43,926 nucleotides of DNA from Streptomyces coryli (GTDB lineage Bacteria; Actinomycetota; Actinomycetes; Streptomycetales; Streptomycetaceae), in NCBI RefSeq assembly GCF_011044975.1, contig NZ_JAAKZV010000041.1, positions 1 through 43,926 of the forward strand, written 5' to 3'. Position 1 is the stretch's first letter; every line of letters starts with the position of its first letter. The notes beneath the pieces were generated by a model, which did no database searches, was not told the DNA's origin, and was given only the letters and a program-made list of their open reading frames with translations. Below are positions 21,532 to 41,465 of the stretch, piece by piece. Made by a program: the position numbers and the translations under genes.

Positions 21532-24087
21532 TTAGGGGAGCGTGCAGGGGTCGGTGATCGTCCAGCTGTGCCGGCCGTGTCCCACGGCCACGGGCTCGCC
21601 GCCGTCGGGCAGATGCACGGTGGCGCGCGCCCCGACCGGCACCGCCACGTCGAGAGAGAACCGGCCGTCCGCGCGCCGCCAGGCGACGGACGCCTCCCCG
21701 TACGGGGTCAGATGGCGGGCGGCGGCGTGGTCGAGCGCGGCGTCGGGCAGCGGCCGTACCGTGATCTCCCGGTAGCCGGGGGCGGCAGGCGCGAGGCCGG
21801 CGACGGTCCGGTGCATCCAGTCGGCCACCGCGCCGAGCGCGTAGTGGTTGAACGACGTCATCTCGCCGGGGTTGATCGAGCCGTCCGGGAGCATGCTGTC
21901 CCAGCGCTCCCAGATGGTCGTCGCGCCCATGGTCACGGGATACAGCCAGGAGGGGCAGCTCTTCTCCAGCAGCAGCCGGTAGGCCAGGCCGGCGTGCCCG
22001 CAGGCCGTGAGCGCGTCGGCGATCAGCGGGGTGCCGACGAAGCCGGTGCTGATCCGAAAGCCGTTCTCCCGGACCAGCTCCGCCAGCCGCCGCCCCGCGT
22101 ACTGCCGCTGCTCCGCCTCGGGCAGTAGCGCCCAGCAGACCGCCAGCGCGTACGCGGTCGGCGCGTCGCTGTGCACCGCACCGTCGGCGGCGACATACGT
22201 GCGGGCGAATGCCTCGCGGGTACGGTCCGCGAGCCCGGCGTAGTGCTTGGCGTCGGCGTCGCGGCCCAGCAGCGCGGCGGCCTGCGCGACGATCTCCGCG
22301 GACCTCGCCAGATGGGCCGTAGCCACAACGCCCGGATCGGCCTTCGCGGCGAACGGGTCGTCCGGCGGCGCCGTCGGGTCGAGCCAGTCGCCGAACTGGA
22401 AGCCGCCCGTCCACACACCGTCCGTGGTGAGCGAGGCGATCCGGTCCACCCAGCCCCGCATGCTGCCGAACTGCCGCTCCAGCACCCCGGCATCCCCGAA
22501 TCGCTGGTGCAGCACCCACGGCACCACCGTCGCCGCATCACCCCACGCCGCGGCCGTGGGGTGCCCGTCCCCCGCCATGTCCGGGATGTCGCGCAGCACG
22601 TCCGGGATCACGTACGGCACCGAGCCGTCCGGCAGTTGGTCGGCCGCCAGATCGGCGAGCCAGGAGCCGAGGAACCCGGCGGTGTCGAAGAGGAAGCTCG
22701 CGGTCGGCGAGAAGACCTGAATGTCCCCGGTCCAGCCGAGCCGCTCGTCGCGCTGCGGGCAGTCGGTGGGCACGTCGAGGAAGTTGCCGCGCATGCTGCG
22801 GACGACGTTGTCGTGCAGCTGCTCGAGGTCGGGGTCCGAGCAGCTGAACCAACCGGTGCGGCGCAGGTCGCTGCCCACCACGACCGCCTGCAGGTCCTCG
22901 GCCCGTACGTCCGGGACACCACTGATCTCGGCGTACCGGAAGCCGTGGAAGGTCAGCTCGGGTTCGAGCATCGTCTCGGCGGCGTCGTCGAGCACGTAGC
23001 TATCGGTGGCCTTCGCGCTGCGCAGCGGGCGGGTGCCGAGCTCGCCGTCCTCCAGGACCTCGGCGTGCCGGACGACGACCTCGGCGCCCGCCGTCGCGCC
23101 GCGCACGCGCAGCCGCACCCGGCCGACCACGTTCTGCCCGAAGTCTGCCAGCGTCCGCCCCGACGGCGACTGCCATACGGACACGGCGGGCAGCACCTCG
23201 GTGACGCGGACCGGAGGCCCTTCGGGGGCGACCAGCCGGCCCAGGTCCTCGTCGAGTACGTCCACGGGGCCGGTCTCCGGCGCCACCGGCCGCAGATCGG
23301 TGCGCTGCCCGTCGTACAGGTCGTCGTGCAGGACGCCGCTGTTGCTGGCCGACCACCGCTCGTCGGTGCCGGAGACCTCCACCGAGCCGTCGGCGTACGT
23401 CACTTCGAGCTGGGCGAGCAGCGCCAGCCGGTCGCCGTAGTGGGCCCGCCGGCCGGTCCAGCCGAGGCGTCCGCGGTACCAGCCGTTGCCCAGAAGTACG
23501 TCGAGGGTGTTGTCGCCAGGGCGCAGCAGCGCGGTGACGTCGTGGACCTGGTAGCGCAGCCGGTGGTGATAGCTCGTCCAGCCGGGGGCCAGCACCTCGT
23601 CGCCGACGCGGCCGCCGTTGAGGGTGGCGCGGTAGACGCCGTGCGCGGTGGCGTACAGCCGGGCGGCGGCGATCTCGCCGCGCAGCGCCACGGTCCGGCT
23701 GAGGACCGGTGCGGGCGACCCGGCGGCGCCGAGCGTGCGCGGGCTGATGAACCGAGCGCTCCAGTCGCCCGGTTCGAGGAGCCCGGTCTCCGCCGTCGCG
23801 GGCGGGCTCCACGCGGTCCACCGCTCCCCCGCGGCCACGCGGACACGGACGGTCGCCCGGGTCCGCGAGGGCAGCGGGTCGAACGGCCAGCGGACCAGGA
23901 CCTGTTCGCCCGACTCGACGCGCACGGCCGGCCCGTCGTCGAGGCGGATCTCGTACGCGGTCTGCCGCCACGCCGGGTCGTCCGTACGTACCTGCCACGA
24001 CAGCCGCGGCGCGCCGGTGCCGAGGCCGAGCCCCTCGTCCCGGTGCTCGAAGCGGACCGCGGAGACGGTGGCCGGATCCTGCGTCAT
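21532..24087 (-). CDS. Alpha-L-rhamnosidase, GH78
   Basis: The 851-residue protein removes terminal alpha-L-rhamnose from glycosides. Order: an N-terminal Fn3-like beta domain (about 1-105), a second beta domain (about 130-270, with the LYATAHGVYRATLNGGRVG block), a further beta region, then the (alpha/alpha)6 catalytic domain from about 430. The GH78 hallmark DCPQRDERLGWTGD (442-455) holds the proposed general acid E448, and GEMTSFNHYALGAV supplies the second catalytic Glu. A C-terminal beta domain closes it. No signal peptide is present, so it acts in the cytoplasm. The ATG overlaps the stop of the upstream GH gene by 4 nt with GAGGAG in place, so the two are coupled. Confidence 0.93.
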   Translation of the reverse strand: MTQDPATVSAVRFEHRDEGLGLGTGAPRLSWQVRTDDPAWRQTAYEIRLDDGPAVRVESGEQVLVRWPFDPLPSRTRATVRVRVAAGERWTAWSPPATAETGLLEPGDWSARFISPRTLGAAGSPAPVLSRTVALRGEIAAARLYATAHGVYRATLNGGRVGDEVLAPGWTSYHHRLRYQVHDVTALLRPGDNTLDVLLGNGWYRGRLGWTGRRAHYGDRLALLAQLEVTYADGSVEVSGTDERWSASNSGVLHDDLYDGQRTDLRPVAPETGPVDVLDEDLGRLVAPEGPPVRVTEVLPAVSVWQSPSGRTLADFGQNVVGRVRLRVRGATAGAEVVVRHAEVLEDGELGTRPLRSAKATDSYVLDDAAETMLEPELTFHGFRYAEISGVPDVRAEDLQAVVVGSDLRRTGWFSCSDPDLEQLHDNVVRSMRGNFLDVPTDCPQRDERLGWTGDIQVFSPTASFLFDTAGFLGSWLADLAADQLPDGSVPYVIPDVLRDIPDMAGDGHPTAAAWGDAATVVPWVLHQRFGDAGVLERQFGSMRGWVDRIASLTTDGVWTGGFQFGDWLDPTAPPDDPFAAKADPGVVATAHLARSAEIVAQAAALLGRDADAKHYAGLADRTREAFARTYVAADGAVHSDAPTAYALAVCWALLPEAEQRQYAGRRLAELVRENGFRISTGFVGTPLIADALTACGHAGLAYRLLLEKSCPSWLYPVTMGATTIWERWDSMLPDGSINPGEMTSFNHYALGAVADWMHRTVAGLAPAAPGYREITVRPLPDAALDHAAARHLTPYGEASVAWRRADGRFSLDVAVPVGARATVHLPDGGEPVAVGHGRHSWTITDPCTLP

Positions 24088-27000
24088 GCGTGCTCCTCGC
24101 TCGTACGGGCGTATCGCTGCAGCCGCACCGGGCCGAACAGTCCGGTACGCGTCTGACCTGCCGTGACGGCCATCGTCGGGGAGGCGTCGTCGAGGTATCC
24201 GGCGAGCGTGCCGCGCACCACCACCTCGAGCAGGTGCTCCCCCGTGCCGAGGGCGTCGGTGATCTCCGTCCGCCACGGGCCCCACACGAGCTGGTCGACC
24301 AGCCGTCCGTCGATGAGGACGTCGGCGGTGCCGCGGACCTCGCCGAGGTCGAGCACGACGCGGTCGGCGGCCGGCGGCGCGGTGATCACGGTGCGATAGC
24401 GCACCTGCCCGCCGAGCGCCCGCAGCCCGAGCTCCTCCCAACTCGCCAGCCGCACCGGGCTCTCGGCCACCTCGACCTCGATCGCCCCGTCGAGCAGCGC
24501 CCCGCCCCGGCGGCCGTCCACGGCCCGTATCTCCAGCACGACCGGGATCGCGGCGGCCAGCGGGACGGGCAGGGCGACGCGGCCGCCGTCCGGCTTGTAC
24601 TCCAGGTCGCCGAGCCGTACGAGGACGTCCAGGTCGGTCGGGATCCGCAGGGCCGTCGTGCCCAGCGGGGCCGGGAAGCGCAGCCATTCGGTGCGCGGCC
24701 CGGGCGCCCGGTCGGGCACCACCGGTACGACGGTGTCGCCCGGTGCCGCGCCGGGTTCCAGCCAGTGGGCGCCCGGCAGCGGGTGCGGCCGCACCCGGGC
24801 GCACAGGAAGCGCGGGTCGCGCTCGTGGAAGCGGCGTACGGGCTCCGCCGCCCAGTCCGGGCCGCTGATCAGGCCGAGGCCTGGCGAGTCGAGGGCGACG
24901 GCGGTGCCTTCTGCGGGCCGGAGGGTGATCGTGTTCTCGCCGGCGCGGAGGACGCCGCTCAGGTCGTGCGGGTTCACGTGGACCTGCTGGTGGCCCGGAT
25001 ACGGGCTGAAGTCGCCCTGGCGGCCGACCTCGACGCCGTTGACCAGCACGCTGCACGCGCCCTCGCCGGCGACCAGCACCTCGGCGCCGGACGCGGGCAC
25101 CTCGTCGAGGCGGAACGTATGGCTCACGTCGCCCGCGCCGGTCAGCCACTCCGGCCTGCGGTACGCGTCCGGGTCCGCGACCACGGCGAAGGAGGCGCGC
25201 AGCGGTCCGTCCCGCTCGGCGGTGAACTCGATCTCCAGGTCCACCGTCCGCCCGGCGGTGTGCGCCGGGAGCGGGCTGAAGGACTGGTAACCGCCGCCCT
25301 CCGACGGTAGTTCGGCGCCGTCCACCCACACCCGGCGCGCGGCGTTGGACCCCACGGCCAGGTGCAGCCCGGTGCGGTCGGGCAGCGGGAGCCCGGTGCG
25401 CACGGCGACCCGCTCCCCTCCCCCGACCCGCCGCCAGTCGAGGAACTCCTCCGGCACATAGCCCTTGGGGCCCAGCGGCTCCAGGTGCACGGGGTCCTTC
25501 TGGATGCCCCGCGACAGCGACCACTGCGCCTGCCGCCAGGTGCCGTCGGGGTCGCGGACGTCGGCGAAGGGCCCGTATCCGGCGGTCACCTGCTCCCAGC
25601 CGGCGCCGCCCTCGGCCGAGTGCTCCAGCCGCCACACCTCGATCGGCAGCACTCCGTCCCGCCCGGCCGCGGCGAGATCGCCGTGCCGGTTGTCCAGGGT
25701 GGAGGTCGCCAGCGCACTCCAGGGCCCGTCGACCGGGACGCTGCCGAGGGCGGCGCCGAGCGGCTCGCGGCTGGCCTCGGGCAGGTCCTCGCCCAGCACC
25801 ACCAGTGCCACGGGCCCGTCCGCGAACGGCACGTCGAGCAGCAGCGCCCCGCCGTCCGCGGTCACCTCCAGCTCGGTGCGCTCGCCGGTCCGCGGATCCC
25901 ACCGCTGCGCGCGGACCCGCGGCAGCCCGTCGATACGGAGCCGGGCCCGGCGGTCGCCGGGCGGCACGAACGTATAGCCGTCCGCGCGCAGCTGCCGCCA
26001 GTACTCGTCCCAACTGAAGCCGGTGGCATACCAGTCGTCCCGGCCCGGCTGCACGATCGGCGCCTTGGTGCCGCTGTGCTCGTCATGCGCGGCGAGCATC
26101 ACGACGTACGTATCGCCGTGCCGCCGCAGCAGATACGGGGCGTCCGCCCGCACCCGTACAGGCCCTGCGGCCACCGCCTCCGGCACCTCCTCGGCCGTGG
26201 CCACCAGCAGCGCGTGCCCGGCCAGCGGCTCCGGCACCCGGCCCACGCACACGACGGTGCCGCCGGAGCGCGCGAACTCCACCAGCCGGCGCCCGGCCGC
26301 CGGATCCAGCAGCTCCACCTCGGGGAGCACCACGGTCCGGTACGTCTCGTCGCCGACCCGCAGGCCTTCCGGTACGGCCTCGCCCGCGGCGATCGTGTTC
26401 TCGTCGAGGGTGTCGTGGTCGATCCCGGCGCGCTCCAGGACGCCGCGCTTCTCCGCCAGCCAGTTGCTGACGCCGTTGAGCCCGTGGAAGCAGGCGGCCG
26501 CCCGCTCGGCCGGGGGCAGCGGCCCGTCCAGCGTCAGATACGCCTGCGAGGTGCTGGTGGGCGACAGCAGCACCGTGTCGCAGACATGCGTGCCCGCGGT
26601 CAGCACCGAGCACAGCCGGGTCACCGCGCCGGAGAACTGGTGGTACGCGGGCCAGTACGGCTGCCGCCAGCAGGTGGACGGCGGCGCCCACTCCCACCAG
26701 CCGCCGGCCGTCGAGTAGTAGACGGCGTGCGGGTCGTACAGATTCGCGCCGCGGCGCAGGAACGGCGCGAGCCAGTCGTAGGTCTCCTCCAGCGTGCCGC
26801 CCCAGCCGGAGGAGTGGAACGCCTCGATCCAGGTGCGCCGCCCGCCGTGCGCGTGCGCGAGCGAGCTGTGCACCTTGGGGTCGCCCCAGTGATCGCTGCC
26901 GGGCGCGCCGAAGCCGGCGTGCGTGCCCAGGTAGTCGCCGTACATCTGCACCCCGCCCACCGGGTCGCCCTCGCGGGCCGGGGACGCCTGGTCGAAGCCG

Positions 27001-31916: not shown

Positions 31917-32615
31917 ATGGAAGAGGGGAAGGGCCGCCGCCTGCTGGTCGTCGATGACGAGCCCGCGATCGTCGATGTGCTCGCGACGTCGCTGCGTTTT
32001 CTCGGATACGACGTCGCCGAGGCGACCACCGGACGCGCCGCGCTGGACGCGGTCCGCTCGCACGCGCCGGATCTCGTGCTGCTCGACGTGATGCTGCCCG
32101 ACCTCGACGGCTTCGAGGTCGTGCGGCGGCTGCGGGCCGGCGGGGCGCGGGTGTCGGTGGTCTTCCTGACCGCCCGGGAGGGCGATGTCGTCAGCGGCCT
32201 CGACCTGGGCGCGGACGACTACATCACCAAGCCGTTCCGCCTCGCCGAGGTCGCCGCCCGGGTCCGCGCCGTGCTGCGCCGCGCCGACGGCGGCTCCGGC
32301 ACCCCGGCCGATGACACCGTGCTGCGCTGCGCCGACCTGGAGCTGGACCCGCGGACGTACGAGGTGCGCCGCGGCGGCACGGCCGTGGAACTGTCGCCGA
32401 CCGAGTACCGGCTGCTGCACCATCTCCTCGCCAACGCCGGCCGCGTCCTCACCCACGAGCAGCTGATGGAGCACGTGTGGGACTACGGCGCCGCCGACAC
32501 GGCCGTGCTCAAGTCGTACATCTCCTACCTGCGCCGGAAGGTCGACTCCCTCGGCCCACCGCTGATCCACACCCGCCGCGGCATCGGTTACGTGCTGCGC
32601 GCCCCCGAGGCGTGA
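31917..32615 (+). CDS. OmpR-family response regulator
   Basis: The 232-residue protein starts at ATG 31917 with GAGGA about 5-7 nt upstream. The receiver domain (about 8-122) has acidic residues D13-D14, phosphoacceptor D57 (LLDVMLPDLDG), the Thr of VFLTAREG and the Lys of YITKPF. The OmpR winged-helix domain (about 135-228) shows LSPTEYRLLHHLLANAGRVLT and SYLRRKVD then RGIGYVLR. It works with the histidine kinase 5 nt downstream; the stop is followed by the kinase ATG. A direct repeat upstream may be its own site. Confidence 0.95.
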   Translation: MEEGKGRRLLVVDDEPAIVDVLATSLRFLGYDVAEATTGRAALDAVRSHAPDLVLLDVMLPDLDGFEVVRRLRAGGARVSVVFLTAREGDVVSGLDLGADDYITKPFRLAEVAARVRAVLRRADGGSGTPADDTVLRCADLELDPRTYEVRRGGTAVELSPTEYRLLHHLLANAGRVLTHEQLMEHVWDYGAADTAVLKSYISYLRRKVDSLGPPLIHTRRGIGYVLRAPEA

Positions 32616-32620
32616 CCGCG

Positions 32621-34015
32621 ATGCCCCGCTCCCTCCGCGCCCGCCTGCTGCTCGCGCTGCTGGCACTGGTGGCGGTCGTGCTGCTCGCCCTGGACGCGGT
32701 CGTGTACGGGGCGCTGCGCGGCTATCTGCTGGACCGCACCGACACGTCGCTGCGCGGGGTGCAGAGCCGCGTGGTCAAGCAGGTCCGGCAGGGGCTGCCG
32801 CCCGCGCAGGGGCTGGCGGCGGACGCGAAGATGCTCGGCACATCGGAGTACTTCATCGAGATCCGGCGGCCGAATGGCACCGTAACGCCGCTGGTCAAGG
32901 GCCTGCGCAATCCGGACGATGCGCCGCCGAGCCTGCCGGCGGAATCCCGTCCGGGGAAGCCGCTCACCGTCGGCGCCGTCGACGCCGACGGACCCGACTA
33001 CCGCCTCCTCACCCGCCCTCTCCCCAACAACCGCGGCACGCTGGTGACCGCCGTCCCGCTCACGTCGGTGGACGGGACGCTGCGCCGGCTGCTGCTGATC
33101 GAGGGGGTGGCGACCGCCGCCGCGCTGGCGCTGCTCACGGCGGCCGGGCTGTGGATCGTACGGCGCGGCCTGCGCCCACTGGAGTCCATGGCCCGCGACG
33201 CCGATGCGATCGCCGCGGGCCGCGGCGGCCACCGGGTCGCACCGGCCGATTCCGGGAGCGAGGTGGGCCGCCTCGGCCTCGCGCTCAACACGATGCTGGA
33301 CGGGCAGGAGGCCACGCAGGAGAGGCTGCGCCAGTTCATCGCGGACGCCTCGCATGAACTGCGCACCCCGGTGACGGCAATCCTCGGCTACGCCGATCTG
33401 CATGCGCAGGGAGCGCTGCCAGGTCCGGAGCAGGTCGGGAAGGCGATGGACGGCATCGCGGGCGAGGCGCTGCGGATGCGGCGGCTGGTCGACGACCTGC
33501 TGCTGCTCGCCCGCCTGGATACGGTACGGGCCCCGGAGCGCGGCGCGGTCGACCTGGGCGAGGTGGCAGAGGCGGCGGTGGGCGCGGCGCGGGCGGTGGC
33601 GCCGGAGCGCCGGGTCGAGTTGGAGGCGCCGCGTGGCGTGGTGGTGTACGGGGACGAGGAGCAGCTGCGCCGGGTGGTGGACAACCTCCTCGCGAACGTA
33701 AGGACCCACACACCACCCACCACGACGACCCGGATCCTCGTCCACAGCACGACGGATGGTGCCTGGGCAGACCTCGTGGTCACGGACGACGGCCCGGGAA
33801 TCCCGGCGGAGTCCCTACCAAAGGTCTTCGACCGCTTCTACCGAGCCGACCGCTCCCGCAGCGGGAAGGGGAGCGGCCTCGGCCTGGCGATCGTGGCGGC
33901 GGTGGCGGAGGCGCATGGAGGGCGTGTGGAGGTGGCGGCATCGCAGGCCGCGGGCCCGGCCGGCGCTGGTGGCGGGACGAGGGTGACGGTGCGACTGCCG
34001 CTGCCGCGGGGGTGA
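32621..34015 (+). CDS. Membrane sensor histidine kinase
   Basis: The 464-residue protein is read from ATG 32621, with GAGG 10 nt upstream; a GTG at 32612 would overlap the regulator stop. TM1 spans about 8-30 and TM2 about 158-180, enclosing a 125-residue extracytoplasmic sensor region. A HAMP domain follows (about 181-235), then the HisKA domain with phosphorylated H245 (ADASHELRTP). The ATP-binding domain has the N box (RRVVDNLLANVRTHTP), VTDDGPGIP and GSGLGLAIV. It is of the EnvZ/PrrB-like type. The signal is unknown. A giant palindrome begins 105 bp downstream. Confidence 0.94.
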   Translation: MPRSLRARLLLALLALVAVVLLALDAVVYGALRGYLLDRTDTSLRGVQSRVVKQVRQGLPPAQGLAADAKMLGTSEYFIEIRRPNGTVTPLVKGLRNPDDAPPSLPAESRPGKPLTVGAVDADGPDYRLLTRPLPNNRGTLVTAVPLTSVDGTLRRLLLIEGVATAAALALLTAAGLWIVRRGLRPLESMARDADAIAAGRGGHRVAPADSGSEVGRLGLALNTMLDGQEATQERLRQFIADASHELRTPVTAILGYADLHAQGALPGPEQVGKAMDGIAGEALRMRRLVDDLLLLARLDTVRAPERGAVDLGEVAEAAVGAARAVAPERRVELEAPRGVVVYGDEEQLRRVVDNLLANVRTHTPPTTTTRILVHSTTDGAWADLVVTDDGPGIPAESLPKVFDRFYRADRSRSGKGSGLGLAIVAAVAEAHGGRVEVAASQAAGPAGAGGGTRVTVRLPLPRG

Positions 34016-34120: not shown

Positions 34121-34373
34121 CCGCCGCCCGGCAGCCCGGGCGCGCCCCGCTCCTCCTCCCTTCCGTAGCCAGCTAATCCACTGGCGCCGGGATCAAACAG
34201 GACTCGGCGACGCTGCCGTCACCATCCGATGCCAAGCTGTCCGGCCCTGACGGCGGGAGAGTTGGCATCGGATGGTGACGGCAGCATCGCCGCCCCACGT
34301 CCGGTGCCGGTGCGAGAAACGGAAGGCTGGCTACGGAAGGGAGGGGCGGGGTGCTTCGGCTGCCGGGCGGCGG
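34121..34373. repeat. Giant nested inverted repeat (about 253 bp) in the gene-free stretch 34016-34434
   Basis: Three pairs of arms share one centre near 34248. The inner pair, 34205-34235 and 34262-34292, matches over 31 bp with one mismatch (34211/34286) and a 26-nt loop. The middle pair, 34155-34173 and 34326-34344, is perfect over 19 bp (CCTCCCTTCCGTAGCCAGC and its complement). The outer pair, 34121-34136 and 34358-34373, is perfect over 16 bp. Intervening parts are partly similar. This is far larger than a terminator. It could be a MITE-like element, an inverted duplication, or a structured RNA. The rest of the gene-free stretch, 34016-34120, is a C-rich run of degenerate GCCGCCAA-like units; nothing else is seen there. 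Confidence 0.85.
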
Positions 34374-34434: not shown

Positions 34435-34935
34435 ATGCGAACACCCAGGCAGGCAGCCAGAGTCGCGGTGCTGGACCCCGCGGGGTCGGTCTTCATGTTC
34501 CGGTACGACAACGAGGAGGTCGGCGTCCACTGGGCGATGCCTGGCGGCGGCCTCGACCCGGGCGAGACGCCGCTGCAGGGGGCTGTGCGCGAAGTGCGCG
34601 AGGAGACCGGCTGGACGGACCTCGAGCTCGACGGCACGGTGCTGTGCCTGTGGGAACACGACTTCACCAGGGCCGGCGTCCCGGTGCGGCAGCATGAGCA
34701 CATCTTCCTCGCGTACGGCCCACGCCGGGACCTGGCCGACGACCTCGCGGCCGCACATGCCGCGGATGGCATCCTGCACGGGCTTTGGTGGTCGCCGGAG
34801 GACCTGTCCGGCGATACGGAGCCACTGTGGCCCCCGCAACTTCCCGAACTGCTGGCTGCGGTGCGGCAGGACGGCCCGCCCGCGACGCCGGTGGACCTCG
34901 GGTACGTCCCGAACGGGTCCGTAGCCGGCCGCTGA
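34435..34935 (+). CDS. NUDIX hydrolase
   Basis: The 166-residue protein starts at ATG 34435, with no clear ribosome site. The full Nudix box runs from G38 to W60: G-x5-E44, then R52-E53-x-x-E56-E57-x-G59. The Glu pair binds Mg2+ and drives hydrolysis of nucleoside diphosphate-linked substrates. The domain is otherwise compact, with a C-terminal tail after residue 140. The enzyme is cytoplasmic and probably a housecleaning pyrophosphatase; the substrate cannot be told. It follows the giant palindrome by 61 bp and is convergent with the DUF1501 gene (22 bp between stops). Confidence 0.92.
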   Translation: MRTPRQAARVAVLDPAGSVFMFRYDNEEVGVHWAMPGGGLDPGETPLQGAVREVREETGWTDLELDGTVLCLWEHDFTRAGVPVRQHEHIFLAYGPRRDLADDLAAAHAADGILHGLWWSPEDLSGDTEPLWPPQLPELLAAVRQDGPPATPVDLGYVPNGSVAGR

Positions 34936-34956: not shown

Positions 34957-36198
34957 TCAGACGAACTCCAGCGTCCTCTCATGCCCGTCCAGCACCTCCC
35001 CAGGCTCCGTCCCCAGCACCCGCTCCAGCAGCGTCGCGTACACATCCCTGAAGTCCGTCGTCGTCTGCAGGTCGTCGTCCTTCAGCTTGGTCAGCGACGG
35101 CTGGTCGCCGTAGAAGCCACCCTTCACCGGCTCCCCCAGGACGAAGACCGGACCCGAAGTCCCATGATCCGTCCCCTGGTTGGCATTGGCCTTCACCCTC
35201 CTCCCGAACTCCGAATACACCGCGACCACGACCTTCTTCCCCCGCACTTCCTCCAGGAAGCCGCTCAGCGCCTTGTCCATCTCGCCGAGCAGTCGCGACT
35301 GGGTGTTCTTCTCGTTCGCGTGTGTGTCGAAGCCGCCCAGGCTGACGCTGAAGACCCGCGTCGGCACCCCGGCCTTGATCGCCTTCGCGACCACCGCCAG
35401 CTGCGCGCCCAGCTGCCCCTGCCCGCCCGCGGACGCGCCGTCGTCGGCCCCGTCCTCGCCACCGTCGCGCGGCTCGCCCGGGTCCACCTGCGCGGTCTCC
35501 CGCTCCGCCCCGAACTCCCCCACCACCTTGGTGAGATCCCCCAGCGACGCCGCCGCCCGCGCCTGCAGCGGATGCACGCCCTCCTGCGCCTGGGCGAGCT
35601 CGCGACATACCTGCTGCCACGGCTTGGCGAGCCGCAGCCCGCCCAGTTGCACGGCCGCGCCCGCGGTCTTCTCTCCCGCCAGCAGCGGCGGCAGCGTGGC
35701 GCCCACGGACACGGCCCGCAGCGGATCCGGGTCCCCCGCCACATCCAGCCACCGGCCCAGCCACCCCGTCGACGCCGGACTGCCCGGCGACCCTGTCTGC
35801 CAGATCGACATCGAGCGGAAGTGGCTGTGATCAGGCCGCGGATACGACACCCCGCGGACGATCGCCAGGTGCTCCTTGTCCCAGAGCTTCTTGAAGCCCT
35901 TCATCGAAGGGTTCAGCCCCAGCTCCTCCCCCAGCGGCAGCACCTCGTCCTCGCCGTACGCGAGATCGGGCCGGGCGTCGCGATACGCCCTGTCCCACGC
36001 CGGTACGACCGTGCCCAGGCCGTCATTCCCGCCGTACAACGTGACCAGCACCAGCGTCCGCGCCTCGCTCGCCCGGCTCGCCTCCGTGCTCGAGCCGAGC
36101 AGGTCGTCGACGCTGTACGCCGTGGCCCCGGCGGCGAGCGCGGCGCCGGCGGTGACGCCGCTCGCGGTCAGGAACTTGCGTCGGGTCCAGGTGTCCAC
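34957..36198 (-). CDS. Tat-exported DUF1501 protein
   Basis: The 413-residue protein starts at GTG 36198 behind GAGGAG. The N-terminus TRRKFLTASG is a twin-arginine signal (R6-R7), followed by a hydrophobic stretch GVTAGAALAAGATA. The body matches DUF1501, a domain of the alkaline phosphatase/sulfatase superfamily: LVLVTLYGGNDGLG, YPRPDHSHFRSMSIWQTG, VSLGGFDTHANE and NQGTDHGTSGPVFVLG. Its biochemical role is unknown. An acidic Gly/Asp-rich insert lies around residue 250. DUF1501 genes usually sit beside DUF1800, as here, with 19 bp between and the DUF1800 gene upstream. Confidence 0.9.
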   Translation of the reverse strand: MDTWTRRKFLTASGVTAGAALAAGATAYSVDDLLGSSTEASRASEARTLVLVTLYGGNDGLGTVVPAWDRAYRDARPDLAYGEDEVLPLGEELGLNPSMKGFKKLWDKEHLAIVRGVSYPRPDHSHFRSMSIWQTGSPGSPASTGWLGRWLDVAGDPDPLRAVSVGATLPPLLAGEKTAGAAVQLGGLRLAKPWQQVCRELAQAQEGVHPLQARAAASLGDLTKVVGEFGAERETAQVDPGEPRDGGEDGADDGASAGGQGQLGAQLAVVAKAIKAGVPTRVFSVSLGGFDTHANEKNTQSRLLGEMDKALSGFLEEVRGKKVVVAVYSEFGRRVKANANQGTDHGTSGPVFVLGEPVKGGFYGDQPSLTKLKDDDLQTTTDFRDVYATLLERVLGTEPGEVLDGHERTLEFV

Positions 36199-39852: not shown

Positions 39853-40016
39853 GCGCCCACTCTGGCACCCGGCCCCGGCTCACCGCAGCGCGTGCGACGC
39901 CGCCTTTCGGGTACGGTCCGCGGCCGCCGCGTGGGGCCTGCGCCGAGTCCCCCGTCGTCGCGCGAAGCGCGGCGCAGCGGTGTCCGGTGCGTGCGATCGG
40001 CGTGCGGCCTCGATGG

Positions 40017-41465
40017 TCATGTGGCGGAGCCACCTGTCCATCGGGGCTGTGCGACGAGCGTGCGTGCCGGGCGCCGGGGCGCAGGCGGGGGGCTCGGCGC
40101 AGGCCCCAGCCCGAACGTAGTGAAGGCGCTCCGGTCCGGCACCGGATAGGGCTCCTTCCCGGTGAGGTCGTTGAGGATGACCGCGCTGCGATGCGCGGCG
40201 AGCCCCAGGTCGGGCGCCCCTACCCCGTGCGTGTGCCGCTCCGCGTTCTGCACGTAGATCTTGCACCCGGCGTCCACCACCGACCGGTCCAGCACCAGCC
40301 GGTAGTCGGCGTCGATCCGCGGCCGTTCGGCGCCGTCCCTGCGCACGTACGGGGCGAGCGGCGCGAGCAGCGAGTCGAGCGGCCGCTCGCGGTAGCCGGT
40401 GGCCAGCACCACCGCGTCGGTGTGCAGCCGCTCGCGGGACTTCTGCTCGGTGTGCTCCAGGTGCAGCTCGATACGGCCGGCGCCGATCCGGCCCGCGGTG
40501 CGCACGGCGACGCCGGGCGTCATGACCACGTCGGGCCATCCCCCGCCCAGCGTGCGGCGGTAGAGCTCGTCGTGGACGGCGGCGAGGGTGTCGTGGTCGA
40601 TGCCCTTGTGCAGCTGCCACTGCCGCGGGACGAGGTCGTCGCGTACGGGCTCGGGCAGGCCGTGGAAGTAGCGGGTGTAGTCCGGGGTGAAGTGCTCGAG
40701 GCCGAGCTTGCTGTACTCCATGGGCGCGAAGGCGCCGGTGCGCCCCAGCCAGTGCAGCCGCTCGGCGCCGACCGGGCGGGACCGCAGCAGGTCGAGGAAG
40801 ACCTCGGCGCCCGACTGCCCGGAGCCGATCACGGTGACGTGCCGCAGGCCGAGGAAGCGCTCCCGGTTGGCGAGGTAGTCGGCGGCGTGCACGACCGGGA
40901 CGGTCGGGGTGTCGGCCAGCGGGCGCAGCGGGTCCGGGATGTACGGCTCGGTGCCGACGCCGAGGACGAGGTTCTTCGCCTGCACGCGGCCGAGCGCCTC
41001 GGCCTCGCCCAGCTCGTCGATCTGGGTGAAGTCGACCTCGAAGCAGGCGCGTTCGGGGTTGAAGCGGACGGCGTCGGCCTGGTGGCCGAAGTGCAGGCTG
41101 GGCAGCGATTCGCTGACCCAGCGGCAGTACGCGTCGTACTCGGCACGGTAGGGGTGCAGCCGCTCGGCGAAGTAGAAGGGGTAGAGGCGGTCGCGGCCGC
41201 GCAGGTAGTTGAGGTAGCTGAAGCGGCTGGTCGGGTCGGCGAGGGTGACCAGGTCGGCGAGGAACGGGACTTGGAGGGTGGTGCCGTCGATGAGCAGTCC
41301 GGGATGCCAGGAGAAGCCGGGGCGCTGGTCGTAGAACCGGGTGGTCAGGCCATCGGTGCCGTCCGCGAGGGCGGCGAGGGAGAGGTTGAAGGGACCGATG
41401 CCGACGCCGACGAGGTCGAGGGGCTGGGGGTCGGTGTCCGGTGCGTCGGGGGTCGTCGGGCTCAT
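40017..41465 (-). CDS. L-lysine N6-hydroxylase (DesB/IucD-like)
   Basis: The 482-residue FAD/NADPH N-monooxygenase hydroxylates the side-chain amine of lysine or of its decarboxylation product cadaverine, a first step in hydroxamate siderophores. Motifs: FAD-binding GVGIGPFNLSL (20-30), the substrate-side block DPTSRFSYLNYL, NADPH-binding VIGSGQSGAEVFLDL, and VVLATGY. The ATG overlaps the decarboxylase stop by 4 nt (ATGA). A Pro/Arg-rich tail of about 30 residues ends the protein. Both genes are downstream of an iron box. Ornithine as substrate is possible; the decarboxylase partner favours the lysine/cadaverine route. Confidence 0.88.
   Translation of the reverse strand: MSPTTPDAPDTDPQPLDLVGVGIGPFNLSLAALADGTDGLTTRFYDQRPGFSWHPGLLIDGTTLQVPFLADLVTLADPTSRFSYLNYLRGRDRLYPFYFAERLHPYRAEYDAYCRWVSESLPSLHFGHQADAVRFNPERACFEVDFTQIDELGEAEALGRVQAKNLVLGVGTEPYIPDPLRPLADTPTVPVVHAADYLANRERFLGLRHVTVIGSGQSGAEVFLDLLRSRPVGAERLHWLGRTGAFAPMEYSKLGLEHFTPDYTRYFHGLPEPVRDDLVPRQWQLHKGIDHDTLAAVHDELYRRTLGGGWPDVVMTPGVAVRTAGRIGAGRIELHLEHTEQKSRERLHTDAVVLATGYRERPLDSLLAPLAPYVRRDGAERPRIDADYRLVLDRSVVDAGCKIYVQNAERHTHGVGAPDLGLAAHRSAVILNDLTGKEPYPVPDRSAFTTFGLGPAPSPPPAPRRPARTLVAQPRWTGGSAT

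Follow-up and report, generated by a model that had tools for sequence, protein, structure and literature searches.

A rare nested palindrome of about 250 bp beside a NUDIX gene of Streptomyces coryli, most probably a private rearrangement scar

The DNA analysed here, a stretch of 43,926 nucleotides from Streptomyces coryli that we call the window, carries between the genes of a sensor kinase and a NUDIX hydrolase a nested quasi-palindrome, P1. The structure is confirmed and unusual for its length; most likely it is a private scar of rearrangement that affects termination incidentally if at all. Long palindromes are reported to endanger chromosome stability in Escherichia coli, where, in the absence of SbcCD and RecA, a 246-bp interrupted palindrome yields inverted duplications (PMC3315005). 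As a natural palindrome of 250 bp that is decayed yet foldable, P1 offers a test case for the origin and persistence of such structures in GC-rich actinobacteria; a survey of bacterial inverted repeats (PMC10434271) that by its own description covered repeats of 6 to 30 bp only therefore says nothing on it. The scan for strong folds that picked out P1 also revealed a second long palindrome about 6 kb away, P2, whose family may matter more than P1: it is a covarying palindromic repeat, with outer arms that differ between copies and are complementary within each.

All three arm pairs of the original prediction were located, with a single mismatch in the longest pair (Table 1), as was the common centre it had placed near 34248: the individual centres fall at 34247 for the 16-bp pair, 34249.5 for the 19-bp pair and 34248.5 for the 31-bp pair, slightly offset by small indels. 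The flanking genes, judged by their Pfam domains, are likewise the ones it had named. Folding of both strands, which had been proposed as a check, turned a 301-nt stretch containing P1 into one single hairpin on each, at -225.5 kcal/mol on the plus strand (z -13.5) and -229.2 kcal/mol on the minus strand (z -15.3), far outside the 100 shuffles, none of which equalled the native value on either strand.

Table 1. Coordinates of the features discussed, in positions of the window
Feature	Coordinates	Strand	Remarks
Sensor kinase gene (HAMP, HisKA, HATPase)	32612..34015	+	Pfam; start codon assumed
Segment between kinase and DUF1501 stop codons	34016..34956		941 bp; holds P1 and the NUDIX gene
P1, nested quasi-palindrome (whole)	34121..34373	.	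arm pairing, folding, fold scans
P1 outer left arm	34121..34136		pairs with 34358-34373, 16 bp, perfect
P1 middle left arm	34155..34173		pairs with 34326-34344, 19 bp, perfect
P1 inner left arm	34205..34235		pairs with 34262-34292, 31 bp, one mismatch
P1 central 26 nt	34236..34261		partly self-pairing in the fold
NUDIX hydrolase gene	34435..34935	+	Pfam, similarity searches
DUF1501 gene	34957..36198	-	convergent with the kinase gene; Pfam
P2, second long palindrome	39932..40108	+	member of a dispersed repeat; sequence unlike P1

Ranked by fold strength against other DNA, P1 stands out most clearly at its full length. In 260-nt windows taken every 75 nt it reached z -6.8, whereas the best of the relatives' DNA (853 kb) was -3.5. 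The 11,284 windows came almost entirely from relatives' loci, and although P1 was scanned more finely, its -6.8 is also obtained at the shared 75-nt step. At a 60-nt step it scored -6.0 against -4.0, the best value in the rescanned part of the relatives' stretches. In a set of 1.43 Mb (13,949 windows of 260 nt, 100-nt step) it came top after GC correction, at -5.3 against -4.4, leaving aside a palindrome at a contig end (L090, -8.5) that was dropped from the ranking as a likely artefact. At the scale of 120 nt (67,261 windows; 2.38 Mb) the inner hairpin of P1 is still first, but barely, with z -5.4 against -5.0 to -5.3 for the hairpins closest to it in strength. A separate palindrome with 49-bp arms was seen near the end of an ORF in Streptacidiphilus jiangxiensis (L070, 11955-12060); we take it to resemble a repeat said to be common in Streptomyces.

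Aligned with each other, the two arms of P1 agree at 91 of 118 columns; the remaining 27 comprise 18 substitutions and 9 gap columns. The non-identical positions are clustered: when 23 events were shuffled over 114 columns, the sum of squares gave p 0.007 and the longest run a borderline p 0.05, which is moderate evidence and depends on the arm alignment chosen. P1 thus has perfect arm blocks beyond those expected under uniform decay, the pattern looked for as a mark of template switching (p 0.007; again moderate evidence). Among its transition mismatches, four form G.U pairs on the plus strand and five on the minus strand, so that no strand bias is seen, unlike in P2, and GC content is flat over the three codon phases, giving no sign of decayed coding sequence within P1. 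Taken together, the degree of identity, the clustering, the lack of strand preference and the flat GC content fit a single inverted duplication that was eroded and in part re-perfected, and the proportion of identical columns and the clustered mismatches agree with the earlier suggestion of an inverted duplication that decayed between its arms.

Our preferred reading, held tentatively and at a little below an even chance, is that P1 is the scar of a one-off inverted duplication at an indel junction, and that its inner stem may be a terminator. A single inverted duplication of about 115 bp would have arisen during a DNA rearrangement at the kinase-DUF1501 junction, likely by snap-back synthesis or by template switching from an end that had stalled or broken, and would not have needed a transposase. 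Point mutations and small indels would then have eroded the arms unevenly, while three blocks were probably re-perfected by repeated template switching. The inner stem could fold at once in transcripts leaving the kinase gene and may, as a by-product, form a bidirectional, U-less terminator that shields the NUDIX gene. Reports credit template switching with bringing quasi-palindromes closer to perfection (PMC7202029) and with giving rise to hairpins (PMC8794818). Like the template-switch quasi-palindromes of E. coli and other organisms, P1 is an imperfect inverted repeat with perfectly identical blocks, for which no copies are needed; unlike with them, the mutation event itself is here a proposed one. 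By our own estimate, 250 bp is long for a quasi-palindrome of this kind. No unduplicated copy of the stretch from which P1 would have been made was seen, and no close relative carrying P1 or an earlier state of it was found.

The location of P1 bears on the same reading. Pfam identifies a response regulator, the sensor kinase, NUDIX, DUF1501, DUF1800 and pyruvate kinase as neighbours in the window, the last 84-87% identical to its best matches, which come from genomes of Streptomyces and Actinacidiphila and most likely place the host in the Streptomycetaceae. Among the relatives found, synteny is best in G709, where the response regulator matches at 77%, the kinase at 62% over 376 residues and DUF1501 at 71%. 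There, 19 bp separate the stop codons of kinase and DUF1501, against 941 bp in the window; the segment that holds P1 and the NUDIX gene is absent. Because G709 is the sole genome with the full syntenic junction, the choice between insertion and deletion is one of parsimony, and from this one informative relative we infer that the 941-bp segment was gained in the window rather than lost in G709. A second relative (G621) is without both kinase and NUDIX gene; in a third (G720) regulator and kinase were searched and neither matched. With the kinase as anchor, none of 394 family genomes gave a match at E 1e-80, a cut-off too strict to inform. By eye, a related response regulator in G621 (L136, 9469-10170) seems to be without acidic residues near its N-terminus; no kinase match adjoins it, and a gene that looks TetR-like lies in the gap.

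With the NUDIX gene as anchor, relatives were found at 80 other loci. None of these encodes the DUF1501, DUF1800 or PK proteins (E 1e-10), and four have distant regulators (36-39%) together with distant kinases (32-34%), some kilobases off. DNA similarity between the NUDIX gene and other loci starts at about 34415, some 20 bp before the start codon. The NUDIX gene accordingly looks acquired, and P1 lies outside its usual upstream region.

A segment absent from G709 would also be expected if P1 were a palindromic transposable element of the MITE or fold-back type, non-autonomous and long since decayed, that perhaps arrived with the NUDIX gene. P2, in the same window, is a dispersed repeat; the lineage thus has elements of this kind, and a mobile origin of P1 at 6 kb from one is not far-fetched; P1 also resembles MITEs and repetitive extragenic palindromes in being intergenic, non-coding, palindromic and within 100-300 bp. 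It differs from them in that neither convincing copies nor a target duplication were found for it, whereas P2 does have dispersed copies. No copy of P1 was found in plasmids or phages, or in a scan of viral contigs for exact inner arms, and a set of 100 relatives, which includes P2-rich genomes such as G681, G683 and G693, yielded one 31-nt match, unrelated by inspection. The 394 family genomes speak more weakly: 97 had matches at E 0.001 or better with two candidates scored per genome, and nearly all of the matches listed are short and lie on the GC-rich outer tips of P1. One locus (L116) has repeated tip-like matches, and the longest match of all (L112, 70% over 124 bases) looks like coding DNA by eye. 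The search for copies in related genomes that had been proposed was thus carried out and returned no convincing copy in the plasmids, phages, viral contigs and relatives' genomes covered.

The ends of P1 share no word of at least 4 bp that could be a target-site duplication, an outcome also seen in 399 of 2000 random pairs; this counts little against a mobile P1, because the ends of the dispersed P2 likewise share no word of that length. P1 and P2 have no significant sequence in common (score 23, where random comparisons had a median of 21 and reached at most 36), and the covariance model of the P2 family (R1), run on the window with matches up to E 10, found none in P1. A mobile origin seems unlikely to us, and the MITE-like element of the original prediction is not borne out in the sets searched. 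A linear-telomere hairpin was also considered for P1 and rejected, as linear telomeres carry many small palindromes.

Whether P1 acts on transcription is a separate matter from how it arose. It might be an oversized transcription terminator or insulator under selection, in which the inner 31-bp hairpin would end kinase transcripts while the outer arms stabilise the RNA 3' end, a reading that we consider fairly unlikely. Both flanking genes read in the same direction across P1, and its inner hairpin is of similar strength to eight strong 120-nt hairpins checked in G709, in seven of which an ORF (at least 120 aa, called mechanically) stops 17 to 86 nt ahead of the centre, although four of the eight also lie within an overlapping ORF, so that what counts as a 'gene end' is in doubt. 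Hairpins that lack a U-tract are moreover reported among the transcript ends of Streptomyces clavuligerus (PMC8269248), and from these two lines of comparison the inner stem of P1 could end kinase transcripts. The earlier statement that no terminator needs such a structure is consequently half right, since the inner stem is within the range of the strong hairpins, putative terminators, near relatives' ORF ends.

Other features of P1 count against a terminator. Its centre lies 233 nt beyond the kinase stop, and among the positive distances listed (17 to 234 nt) only one is greater; at the 260-nt scale the G709 hairpins have no counterpart of its extra outer arms. A search for intrinsic terminators, meaning a short stem-loop with a T-run, found no plus-strand site in the direction of the kinase, the sole site inside P1 being on the minus strand. 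P1 resembles the U-less ('I-shaped') terminators of GC-rich Streptomyces in following a gene end and in having a strong inner stem rich in GC; its nested extent of 250 bp, its 26-nt centre, its distance past the stop and the near-equal stability of its two strands set it apart from them.

Another possibility is that a structured small RNA, made by read-through from the kinase gene, has P1 as its gene or 3' end. The extreme fold of both strands would suit such an RNA, but the mismatches show no strand preference, there is no orthologue in which to seek covariation, and a promoter search, restricted to the sigma-70 type, gave no match. Rfam returned four matches to P1 up to E 1, all below the gathering score; two of them, microRNA hairpin models at E ~0.0004, are far below theirs. 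We regard this reading as very unlikely and retain the duplication scar as the better account of P1.

P2 begins just past the start of a SIMPL gene and reaches into the end of an N-monooxygenase reading frame (stop at 40017), folds more stably on the plus strand (-161 kcal/mol) than on the minus strand (-118 kcal/mol), and has transition mismatches that favour G.U pairs on the plus strand by 9 to 0. In 19 of the 20 best SIMPL loci, drawn from 56 matching genomes, a nucleotidase gene stands beside SIMPL, the twentieth locus starting at a contig end; in the window this gene is absent from the interval in question (39853-40110), where P2 lies. At one further locus (L180) the nucleotidase gene is also absent, with about 340 bp between SIMPL and monooxygenase and no long palindrome, so the loss of the gene and the presence of P2 need not be linked.

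Judged by sequence comparison, P2 is a member of a dispersed repeat family with covarying arms, to which P1 does not belong. Matches to P2 occur in 23 of 46 relatives, cover at least 100 bases in 11 of the 46, and at best reach 86% over 146 bp; one relative has at least 18. Twenty sites of the family were read (L251-L270 among the locus labels), and the core alignment (A3) combines the window with 16 of the 20, four (L253, L255, L256, L267) having been missed by the search expression. In these 17 cores 96.7% of cells pair, and both sides have changed in 14 of 37 pairs. They score 0.385 for covariation, shuffled versions 0.150 and slid versions 0.07-0.12; in such a comparison, relatedness can by itself lift sequences above their shuffles, without any structure. 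Four G.U pairs do not vary among the 17 rows of A3, by construction, because their letters are fixed in the search expression used to choose the rows. A2, an alignment not chosen in that way, comprises 15 copies and the window; all four pairs are kept in 14 of its 16 rows, and the exceptions, L253 and L267, each replace one of them by a Watson-Crick pair.

The outer arms of P2 vary between copies and match within a copy: the median score is 21 within and 5 between, and 2 of 272 between-copy pairs score at least as well (of the 17 alignments of outer arms, those of L248 and L270 extended past the element). Run on the window up to E 10, R1 gave four matches, namely P2 on both strands and weak ones at 25080-25150 and 23836-23869. 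Rfam yielded sub-threshold matches only for P2. Four Streptomyces plasmids have partial matches to P2, while a related copy matched no phage, and among the papers listed in literature searches none dealt with such a repeat.

The rewriting of outer arms with complementarity kept, as seen in the P2 family, is the basis for a joint reading of the two palindromes, in which they would be two kinds of one class: Streptomycetaceae palindromic cassettes whose arms are rewritten as a unit and which settle at junctions of gene gain or loss, P1 being an older, strain-specific member with a core of its own. We think this quite improbable, and continue to read P1 as a probable private scar. Many copies of the P2 family (L251-L270) end near C-T-A-G or C-T-G-G adjoining a run of G; a CTAG-like target is a trait of some insertion sequences, which these ends recall.
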